Origin: Bacteroidota bacterium | GTDB lineage: Bacteria > Bacteroidota > Bacteroidia > Flavobacteriales_F > PHOS-HE28 | Reading direction: 5' to 3' | DNA length: 47,511 bases | Assembly (NCBI GenBank): GCA_018267055.1 | Contig: JAFDZF010000008.1 | Location: 1 to 47,511 of the forward strand | Shown: one piece after another, positions 26,712 through 30,901 of the stretch | Layout of the letters: the number at the start of each line of letters is the position of its first letter | Position numbering within the stretch: position 1 is the first letter of the stretch | Position numbers and translations under genes: made by a program | The notes under the pieces: generated by a model | Databases searched by the model: none | What the model saw: only the letters and a program-made list of their open reading frames with translations | Told to the model about the DNA's origin: nothing

Positions 26712-26719
26712 TATTTTTG
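26712..26719 (+). promoter_or_regulatory. -7 box 4 nt before the OmpA-family gene (leaderless mRNA candidate)
   Basis: TATTTTTG is a full match to TAnnTTTG and is followed by TTCC and the ATG at 26724. It is among the few AT-rich octamers in this GC-rich window. Confidence 0.6.
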
Positions 26720-27983: not shown

Positions 27984-28241
27984 CTAGACGCGGTGCGGAT
28001 GATGTTCGCCGATGATCCGGCGGGCGATGTCCAGGATGCGTGTATCGTCCAGCGCCACCACCCCTCCACCGGCACCTCCTTCGAGATGGACGCCCATGGG
28101 CTTGCCCTCGGGGTGGCTGTAGCCCCCGAAGTAGTTCCACACCGTCTCGACGTTCAGGTCGAGCTCCTTCGCGATGCGATGGATGCTCCCGTCCGGCAGG
28201 CTGTCCTTGATGGTGCGGAGCTCATTGAAGGTGATGTTCAT
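27984..28241 (-). CDS. Small DNA-binding protein (Bacteroidota HTH type)
   Basis: The 85-residue protein starts MNITFNELRTIKDSLPDGSI. A helix-turn-helix-like segment, HRIAKELDLNVETVWNYFGG, spans about residues 18-37. The C-terminal part is Gly-rich (LEGGAGGGVVALDDTRILDIARRII). Proteins of this size and pattern occur in many Bacteroidota and are annotated only as DNA-binding; the role is unknown. It diverges from the adenylate cyclase gene, and the 119-bp gap holds both promoters, so it may regulate the cyclase or itself (inference). The ATG at 28241 is chosen because the frame upstream looks non-coding and a TACCTTGT box lies 28 nt before it. Confidence 0.8.
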   Translation of the reverse strand: MNITFNELRTIKDSLPDGSIHRIAKELDLNVETVWNYFGGYSHPEGKPMGVHLEGGAGGGVVALDDTRILDIARRIIGEHHPHRV

Positions 28242-28269
28242 GATGCTGCGGATTTGGTTCGGAACCTCC

Positions 28270-28277
28270 ACAAGGTA
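28270..28277 (-). promoter_or_regulatory. Candidate -7 box for the small DNA-binding protein gene
   Basis: The minus strand reads TACCTTGT, 28 nt before the ATG at 28241, within the divergent promoter region shared with the cyclase gene. Confidence 0.35.
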
Positions 28278-28347
28278 AAGGGGTTGGCACGCGGATCGTT
28301 CACCAGGATCCCGGTTTTTTCTTTGCACAGGAGCCCTTGGCCGCCGC

Positions 28348-28355
28348 TACCTTTC
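28348..28355 (+). promoter_or_regulatory. -7 box 5 nt before the adenylate cyclase gene
   Basis: TACCTTTC, one mismatch to TAnnTTTG, is followed by CGATC and the ATG at 28361, implying a leaderless or near-leaderless transcript. Confidence 0.5.
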
Positions 28356-28360
28356 CGATC

Positions 28361-30901
28361 ATGCATCGCCTCCGCCCAGCGGCCACCCTGGCGGGTCTTG
28401 TCCTGGCACGGGGGTTGGCCGCGCAACAATGCGACCTCCGGGTGTTCGGGATCGAGGACGGGCTGCCGGGATCGACCGTGACCACCCTGGCGCAGGACAG
28501 CGCCGGCTTCCTCTGGCTCGATACGGACGGCGGGCTTTGCCGCTTCGATGGCGTCACCTTCGCCCGGTGGGACACCACCGGTGCACCGCCCCCGCGCGAA
28601 GTGGGCGCGGTGCGCATGCCGGGCATGGCGTCCTGGGGCCTGCGGGAACGGCCGCAACAGCAGGCGTCCACCCCGGGCAGCGGCACGTGGACGGCGACGG
28701 ACCGCGGCGTGCTCCGCCGGCACGGGCACGCGGAGGAGCGGTACACCGTGCGCAACGGGTTGGGCAGCGACCTGGTGCAGTGCGTGTTCGCCGACGCCAG
28801 CGGCGTGGTGTGGATCGGCACGCGCAACGGCGGCGTGGCCCGCTGGACCAGCGATGCGGCGATCCGCTGGGGCGTGCGCGACGGGCTGCCGGGGAACATG
28901 GTGAGCGCCGTGGCCCGCCTTCCCGATGGACGGCTCTTCCTGGGCTGCGCCGACGGCGGACTGGCGGTGCTGGACACCAACGGGCTGTCGATACCCGGTC
29001 CCGCGGAAGGCCTCCTGAGCGGGGAAGTGCGGTGCCTCGCCTTCGGGGAGCGCACCCTGCTGGTGGGCACCGCGGACGGCCTGTTCGAAGCGCCGATGCA
29101 CACGGGACGCTGGGCCTTCGACCGGGTGCCGCGAAGCCGGCAGGTGGACGCCTTGCTGGCCCTCCCCAATGGGCATGTATGGGTGGGCACGCCCCGCGGC
29201 CTGTTCGACCGGATGCCCGGGGCCGAGGGGGTGCGCGTGGGCCAGGACACCTTGCCGGTGGCGGCGCTGGCGCTGGACGGCGACTCGGTGCTGATCGGCA
29301 CCGCGCAAGGCCTGTTCCGTGCACCGGCGGCCAACAGCAGCGCGAGCTGGACACGGCTGTTCCCGGCGGGCGAGGAGGACATCACCGCGCTGGCACGCGA
29401 CCATGAGGGCAACATCTGGGCGGGCACACGTACGCGCGGCCTGCTGCGCCTCGCCCCGAGCGGCCCGGCCCGGTGGACCACGGCCGAAGGCCTTTCGAGC
29501 GACCGCGTGCGGCAGGTGCTGCTGGACGCCTACGACAACGTATGGGTGGGCACGGCGCGCGGGTTCGACATGCTCGAACTCGATGTGCTGCAGGAACAGG
29601 TCATCGGCATCACGCACTACGGCACCGCCGACGGCTTCCCCGGCATCGAGGCCCTGCCCGGTGCCTGCCTGCTCGACCGCGACAGCGCCCTCTGGTTCGG
29701 CACCACCCGCGGGGCCGTGCGCTTCGATCCCCGCCGGCTGCTGGAGGACCCCGTGCCCCCGCGGACGCGCATCGCGGACATCACCCTGTTCTTCGCACAC
29801 CCCGACTGGTCGAAGTGGTGCGACAGCCTCGGCGCCGACGGCCTGCCCGTGGGGCTGAAGGTGCCGTACGACCAGGACCACTTCACGTTCTTCTTCAGCG
29901 GCCTCTCGCTCGCCGATCCGGAGAAGGTGCGCTTCCGCTACCGGCTGCAAGGGCATGATGCGGACTGGTCGCCCATCACCGCGGAGGACCGCATCACCTA
30001 CAGCGGCCTGGGGCCGGGCGACTACGTCTTCGAGGTGCAGGCACGCAACGGCAGCGGCGTGTGGAACGACCGTCCGGCGACGTTCGCCTTCTCGATCACC
30101 CCGCCGTTGTGGCGCACCACGGGCTTCCGCACCACGGCCGTGGCGCTGGTCCTGCTGCTCCTGTTCGGGTCGCTGCGCCTGCGCGACCGCCGGGCCCGCC
30201 TGGCCCGCGAGCGCCTGGAGCGGATGGTGAGCGAGCGCACGCGCGAACTGGCCGATGAGAAGCACCGCAGCGAATCGCTGCTGCTGAACATCCTGCCGGA
30301 GACCACCGCCGCCGAGCTGAAGGAGCGCGGCACCACGGAGGCACGCCACTACGACGAGTGCACGGTGCTCTTCAGCGACTTCCAGGGGTTCACCACCATC
30401 AGCGAACGGATGGAGGCCACCGGCGTGGTCACCGAGCTGGACCGGTTCTTCCGCGCGTTCGACCGCCTCACCGACACCTACGGGCTGGAGAAGATCAAGA
30501 CCATCGGCGACGCCTACATGTGCGCGAGCGGCGTGCCGGTCCCGCGCGCGGACCATGCGGAAGCGGCCGTGCGCATGGCGCTGGACATGGTGGACGCGGT
30601 GGACCGCCTGAACGCGGAGCGCGCCGAGGAAGGCAAGCATCCGTGGCCCATCCGCATCGGCCTGCACAGCGGCCCGCTCGTGGCCGGCGTGGTGGGCGAG
30701 AAGAAATTCGCCTATGACATCTGGGGCAGCACGGTGAACCTGGCCAGCCGCATGGAGAGCAACAGCGAGGCCGGCCGCATCAACTGCAGCGAGGCCACCT
30801 ACCGCCTCATCCGCGACCGGTTCCGGTGCGAGCCGCGCGGCCGCATCCCCGTGAAAGGCCAGGGCGAGGCGGCGATGTACTTCGTCACCGGCGCGCACTA
30901 G
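28361..30901 (+). CDS. Transmembrane class III adenylate cyclase with periplasmic two-component-type propeller sensor
   Basis: The 846-residue protein has a signal peptide and a large periplasmic beta-propeller of reg_prop repeats (such as GLPGSTVTTLAQDSAGFLW and GNIWAGTRTRGLLRL). A Y_Y_Y domain follows at ~495-582, then a transmembrane helix at ~583-607, a coiled coil (RERLERMVSERTRELADEK) and a class III cyclase domain at ~660-845. Metal-binding aspartates are Asp673 (FSDFQGF) and Asp717 (IGDAYM). The base-selecting residues Lys713 and Asp786 (AYDIWG) match adenylate rather than guanylate cyclases, and Asn793 and Arg797 (NLASR) complete the transition-state set. It should dimerise and make cAMP in response to a periplasmic ligand. 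Propellers of this kind normally drive histidine kinases. The upstream gene diverges. Confidence 0.93.
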   Translation: MHRLRPAATLAGLVLARGLAAQQCDLRVFGIEDGLPGSTVTTLAQDSAGFLWLDTDGGLCRFDGVTFARWDTTGAPPPREVGAVRMPGMASWGLRERPQQQASTPGSGTWTATDRGVLRRHGHAEERYTVRNGLGSDLVQCVFADASGVVWIGTRNGGVARWTSDAAIRWGVRDGLPGNMVSAVARLPDGRLFLGCADGGLAVLDTNGLSIPGPAEGLLSGEVRCLAFGERTLLVGTADGLFEAPMHTGRWAFDRVPRSRQVDALLALPNGHVWVGTPRGLFDRMPGAEGVRVGQDTLPVAALALDGDSVLIGTAQGLFRAPAANSSASWTRLFPAGEEDITALARDHEGNIWAGTRTRGLLRLAPSGPARWTTAEGLSSDRVRQVLLDAYDNVWVGTARGFDMLELDVLQEQVIGITHYGTADGFPGIEALPGACLLDRDSALWFGTTRGAVRFDPRRLLEDPVPPRTRIADITLFFAHPDWSKWCDSLGADGLPVGLKVPYDQDHFTFFFSGLSLADPEKVRFRYRLQGHDADWSPITAEDRITYSGLGPGDYVFEVQARNGSGVWNDRPATFAFSITPPLWRTTGFRTTAVALVLLLLFGSLRLRDRRARLARERLERMVSERTRELADEKHRSESLLLNILPETTAAELKERGTTEARHYDECTVLFSDFQGFTTISERMEATGVVTELDRFFRAFDRLTDTYGLEKIKTIGDAYMCASGVPVPRADHAEAAVRMALDMVDAVDRLNAERAEEGKHPWPIRIGLHSGPLVAGVVGEKKFAYDIWGSTVNLASRMESNSEAGRINCSEATYRLIRDRFRCEPRGRIPVKGQGEAAMYFVTGAH

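Follow-up and report, generated by a model that had tools for sequence, protein, structure and literature searches.

The window, a stretch of 47,511 nucleotides from contig JAFDZF010000008.1 of a Bacteroidota bacterium, contains an open reading frame that encodes, from an ATG start, a protein of 846 amino acids, see Table 1. The GC content at codon positions 1, 2 and 3 of this frame is 0.70, 0.53 and 0.92, and intact orthologues at 50-57% identity exist in other species of the genus; thus, it is a real gene. From the N-terminus, the protein consists of a predicted signal peptide, Reg_prop blades, a Y_Y_Y domain, one transmembrane (TM) helix, an S-helix followed by a handle, and a class III cyclase domain. 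The Pfam matches to Reg_prop (E-value 1.5e-26), Y_Y_Y and Guanylate_cyc all exceed the curated cut-offs.

An AlphaFold2 model of the monomer has a mean pLDDT of 84 and a pTM of 0.61, so the domain arrangement in it is uncertain. The initial annotation described a propeller and Y_Y_Y sensor joined through a helix and a coiled coil to a class III cyclase, and this join is seen in the Pfam matches, the hydropathy and the model alike.

Table 1. Features of the cyclase gene. Coordinates refer to the window, residues to the 846-residue protein.
Feature	Residues	Coordinates	Strand	Evidence
Candidate Bacteroidota -7 promoter box (TAnnTTTG-like), TACCTTTC, 13 nt 5' of ATG		28348..28355	+	Recurs in orthologues
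Whole gene, predicted receptor-type class III adenylate cyclase	846 aa	28361..30901	+	ORF and Pfam
Predicted signal peptide, MHRLRPAATLAGLVLARGLAAQ	1-21	28361..28423	+	Read by eye; Q22 invariant in 21 homologues
First-propeller remnant, ~3 blades, with disordered deletion junction at 74-97	23-163	28427..28849	+	Alignment gap against 14-blade orthologues; blade HMM; pLDDT <50 at 74-97
Complete seven-bladed propeller	164-464	28850..29752	+	AlphaFold2 model
Y_Y_Y domain	518-579	29912..30097	+	PF07495, 1.8e-14
Single TM helix	~587-607	30119..30181	+	Hydropathy; helix in AlphaFold2 model
S-helix coiled coil, ERT signature (R626, T627)	~612-636	30194..30268	+	T627 invariant in 35 homologues, R626 in 21
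Handle / cyclase transducer element (LLLNILP...)	640-656	30278..30328	+	Helix 647-656 in model
Class III cyclase catalytic domain	661-843	30341..30889	+	PF00211, 5.9e-58; structural match to 5oyh
Metal-binding Asp	Asp673	30377..30379	+	Invariant in 35 homologues
Adenine-selecting Lys to metal-binding Asp	Lys713 to Asp717	30497..30511	+	Both invariant in 35 homologues
Adenine-selecting Asp	Asp786	30716..30718	+	Invariant in 35 homologues
Transition-state pair	Asn793, Arg797	30737..30751	+	>=90% in 35 homologues; invariant in 21

Start site and neighbouring genes

Many orthologues begin with the pattern TA[TC]CTTTCC-N4-ATG, in which the box lies about 13 nt before the ATG. In 151.6 kb of the genome, 10 of the 17 TAnnTTT[GC] sites are located at most 12 nt before the ATG of an open reading frame of at least 80 aa, compared with 0-22% for altered motifs. 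This placement suggests near-leaderless transcripts from a putative -7 element of the Bacteroidota type. The window itself contains such boxes at 26712, 28348, 20432 (-) and 12746 (-). A longer frame, starting with TTG at 28337, is disfavoured, as the conserved TAnnTTTC box would then fall inside the coding region; the ATG at 28361 is supported.

In each of the orthologous regions compared (L060 and L174 in this comparison are the same contig), the cyclase gene has as its neighbour a small, divergently oriented gene, which in the window lies at 27984-28328 (-). Beyond it lies an OmpA-family gene, in an order kept in four other genomes (G027, G019, G008 and G024), one of which, G027, additionally shares the two genes preceding the OmpA-family gene. 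The position of the cyclase gene is thus conserved within the genus, which we count in favour of a receptor cyclase. The product of the small gene is 71-82% identical across the orthologous regions, matches no known Pfam or NCBIfam family and, on inspection by eye, resembles DNA-binding proteins.

A sensor with a shortened first propeller

The best structural match of the sensor is BT4663, a member of the Bacteroides hybrid two-component systems (PDB 4a2l/4a2m; also 3v9f and 3ott), to which the model aligns with Z 33 over 538-550 residues. Sensors of this type share the Reg_prop propeller, the Y_Y_Y domain and a likely dimeric state with the 846-residue protein. However, they contain two closed seven-bladed propellers, i.e., about 14 blades, while here the first propeller is cut to about three blades, which precede the only closed propeller in the model (the second, ~164-464). 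On their own, residues 164-464 superpose on seven-bladed propellers (Z 28-30, rmsd 2.4-2.7 Å, 262-276 residues), and a single ten-bladed propeller is therefore not supported. A 14-blade orthologue (L061) models as two closed seven-bladed propellers (~23-325 and 325-620), and its alignment to BT4663 covers 684-691 residues. A home-made blade HMM detects 10 blade motifs in the 846-residue protein, 13 or 14 in most orthologues, and 7 or 8 in the three nearest short relatives. The propeller of the initial annotation is thus present, but not as the canonical double propeller, with about 10 blades against the 14 of most orthologues.

When aligned to the 14-blade orthologues, the protein shows a single gap of about 170-200 residues, which separates its first blade from those that follow. 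The four short proteins (this one and three relatives) form a clade with a support of 0.88, nested in the long-form group of the tree, so a single loss of about four first-propeller blades is the simplest account. Judged from the strand order, the lost blades would correspond to blades 2-5. The shortened form is shared by the genomes of three other species, which rules out an assembly error.

In BT4663, the disaccharide is bound by both propellers (PMC5121618), so one of the two ligand sites is probably gone from the short-form lineage. With about four of its seven blades missing, the first propeller may no longer bind a ligand, and the output could be constitutive. The protein could then be a degenerating receptor, in which the blade loss, with its disordered junction, uncoupled sensing and left an anchored cyclase with basal activity. 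However, the short form persists with open frames in four species, at about 50% identity, and it retains an intact second propeller, Y_Y_Y domain, S-helix and active site, which decay is not expected to preserve; we consider a constitutive receptor unlikely. The natural 14-blade and 10-blade versions provide a ready comparison of the role of each propeller.

Membrane helix, S-helix and handle

In the model, one continuous helix (587-644) is followed by a short helix (647-656) and then by the cyclase fold. The stretch after the membrane, RLERMVSERTRELADEKHRSESLLLNILP, contains the ERT signature defined for the S-helix (PMC1592074) and then the handle, or cyclase transducer element, described for class III cyclases (PMC7384201). 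Together, S-helix and handle are the proposed signal relay of these enzymes (PMC1592074, PMC7384201). The signature, VSERTREL at residues 623-630, lies in the coiled coil between the sensor and the catalytic domain. The same stretch is matched by HNOBA, with an E-value of 0.11 in this protein and 4.7e-5 at best among the relatives. Within the handle, L640, L641, N643, I644, L645 and P646 are invariant in 21 homologues.

Catalytic domain and predicted substrate

The catalytic domain scores 195.9 bits against PF00211 (cut-off 21.9), and in sequence it comes closest to adenylyl cyclases from bacteria and mammals. Class III structures superpose on its model at 1.5-2.1 Å, for example 5oyh at an rmsd of 1.5 Å over 184 residues with 41% identity. 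The metal-binding (Asp673 and Asp717), base-selecting (Lys713 and Asp786) and transition-state (Asn793 and Arg797) residues are intact, as the initial annotation had stated, and its residue numbers hold. This intact active site, as well as the domain order and the conserved ERT S-helix, is directly visible in the sequence and the model.

In class III cyclases, a lysine paired with an aspartate (or a threonine in its place) selects ATP, while glutamate with cysteine or serine selects GTP (PMC7384201). From sequence, the Lys713/Asp786 pair predicts ATP as the substrate, and the product would then be cAMP. Because class III specificity can switch by a few substitutions (PMC7384201), cGMP or a pyrimidine cyclic nucleotide could be considered instead. 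However, the pair present here, Lys713 and Asp786, selects adenine and does not vary among 35 relatives, which makes such a product very improbable.

Two groups of known cyclases resemble the protein in part. The mycobacterial Cya proteins (Rv1625c and M. intracellulare Cya; PDB 4p2f, 5o5k and 7yzk) have a class III catalytic domain with 41-45% identity and a helical domain leading into it. However, their polypeptide crosses the membrane with six TM helices and lacks a large extracellular sensor, in contrast to the single TM helix and predicted periplasmic sensor of the 846-residue protein. Receptor guanylyl cyclases, e.g., GC-A (PDB 9bcv), share the plan of an extracytoplasmic receptor, a single TM helix, an S-helix and a class III dimer, but their guanine-selecting residues, kinase-homology domain and peptide-binding ectodomain are all absent from the 846-residue protein.

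Spread of the fusion

The same architecture occurs a second time in the genome, in a protein of 1064 aa with 14 blades (C105, L017:4942-8133 (-)). Two families of the fusion, that of the window and that of C105, are found throughout the genus, with about 40% identity between them. Within the phylum, the Y_Y_Y-cyclase join is present in at least 20 of 296 sampled genomes (this one among them), and the open frames that carry it are 885-1242 aa long. The count is a minimum, since scoring covered about seven candidates per genome, and a match had to span the whole of a profile that runs from Y_Y_Y through the TM helix and S-helix to the cyclase; Reg_prop lies outside this profile.

A further 34 full-length relatives were found on GTDB contigs, and all 34 contain Reg_prop, Y_Y_Y and Guanylate_cyc. 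Their records are labelled as Flavobacteriales, Saprospiraceae, Melioribacteraceae, Kapaibacterium and spirochaetes, and include the isolate Treponema bryantii NK4A124 (L087), though some labels are doubtful, such as those of the 'Chryseobacterium gleum' MAGs. Orthologues with the same fusion, which the initial annotation had proposed to look for, are present in the genus, and relatives occur in the phylum sample and in records labelled as other phyla. Together with the paralogue in the genome, they rule out that the fusion is unique to this protein. Most of these uncharacterised relatives have a longer sensor, and some carry added domains: PAS, inserted between Y_Y_Y and the cyclase in L103:208-3825 (+), or HD or receiver domains in others. 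Elsewhere in the genome, a sensor of the Reg_prop/Y_Y_Y type is fused to a SpoIIE phosphatase (L025:2646-6140 (+), G000:C27).

A viral origin of the gene was also considered and rejected, since just two IMG/VR contigs matched, in the cyclase part alone and at 48-49% identity. These contigs (L028 and L029) are catalogued as viral and may be host DNA.

Public models recognise the enzyme class, the sensor class and the fusion of the two, and this fusion is common. Among the open-access papers searched, none joins Reg_prop or Y_Y_Y with a cyclase in one protein. Thus, this kind of receptor is widespread and apparently uncharacterised, and the shortened sensor is a lineage-specific variant of it.

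No sign of a polysaccharide utilisation system

Most of what is known about Reg_prop/Y_Y_Y sensors comes from glycan-sensing kinases in gut Bacteroides, and the initial annotation associated the sensor with polysaccharide use. It can be imagined that the protein is a glycan sensor that governs polysaccharide use like the Bacteroides hybrids, with cAMP in place of phosphotransfer, as its sensor has the fold of BT4663, which binds heparin disaccharides (PMC5121618). However, the genome contains no match to SusD (PF07980, PF14322), in a search that was positive for a control Bacteroides genome. Nor does any identified neighbour resemble a polysaccharide-use gene: these are the OmpA-family protein, a secreted protein and the small protein without a known family. 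BT4663-type sensors, in contrast, are linked to a polysaccharide utilisation locus with SusC/SusD. The outputs differ as well, as those sensors lead to a kinase, a receiver and AraC, while the 846-residue protein has no Pfam match to a histidine kinase, receiver or AraC domain and ends in a PF00211 cyclase. Of the six Y_Y_Y proteins of the genome, two have a cyclase as their output, three a LytS-type histidine kinase and one a SpoIIE phosphatase, and there is no AraC-type hybrid among them.

On present evidence, the protein is therefore not a regulator of polysaccharide use; the glycan-sensor reading is distinctly unlikely and the proposed association is unsupported. The variety of outputs shows instead that the sensor is a general input module in this genome, and in the 846-residue protein the module appears to drive the synthesis of a second messenger.

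Proposed mechanism

We suggest that the protein is very likely a homodimeric, ligand-controlled receptor adenylyl cyclase of the inner membrane. Dimerisation, cAMP as the product, ligand control and its sign, the identity of the ligand and the fate of the cAMP are what we infer. BT4663 is a dimeric sensor whose conformation changes on disaccharide binding (PMC5121618), and the active site of class III cyclases forms only in a dimer (PMC9433096); by analogy with both, a ligand-driven relay from Y_Y_Y to a cyclase dimer is likely. A periplasmic ligand or protein partner would bind the surviving seven-bladed propeller and/or the Y_Y_Y dimer interface, and the two Y_Y_Y domains would move. Their movement would shift or rotate the single TM helices and the S-helix coiled coil, and the handle helix could let the two cyclase domains close head-to-tail. 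The closed pair would have two identical active sites that convert ATP to cAMP, so that cAMP production would be governed from the periplasm.

Candidate receivers of cAMP

The initial annotation had also proposed a search for Crp/Fnr-type receptors and other cyclases in the genome. The cyclases are there, with eight PF00211 matches, of which three are strong, but the search for receivers, which covered the CNB domain, gave just two proteins, even at E-values up to 10, and neither has the classical cAMP contacts. E. coli CRP holds cAMP via Glu72, Arg82 and Ser83. The first CNB protein is a receiver-CNB-HTH_Crp fusion (L022:4740-6158 (-), G000:C170), with the pocket loop GYMGLLENGRAMET where the loop of CRP is GELGLFEEGQERSA, or, written differently, GYMGLLENGRAMETAEA versus GELGLFEEGQERSAWVRA in CRP. 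In 30 relatives from the genus, a similarly altered loop is kept, without Arg-Ser. The second, of 203 aa, is closest to 3dn7, and its corresponding region, EDWWAFDIESFALGVPCSYGIE, is also without the Arg-Ser pair. In one complete relative (G010), five CNB regions have, by eye, no clear Arg-Ser loop.

As both CNB proteins lack the cAMP-contact residues of CRP, the genome has no recognisable classical cAMP receptor. It can tentatively be speculated that the genus makes cAMP with several adenylyl cyclases, which in this genome include the two propeller receptors, and reads it through a receptor other than a classical CRP, either the receiver-CNB-HTH protein with its altered pocket or an undescribed cAMP-binding protein. 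If so, the receiver-CNB-HTH protein would unite phosphotransfer and cyclic-nucleotide input in one regulator. With intact adenylyl cyclases beside no recognisable classical CRP, the receiver of cAMP becomes a directly testable question, and it is the part most worth pursuing.

Across the genus, the number of PF00211 matches ranges from 2 to 21 per genome. Many of these cyclase domains lie in frames of 600-770 aa, and some form tandem arrays, e.g., G005:C192 and G003:C250.
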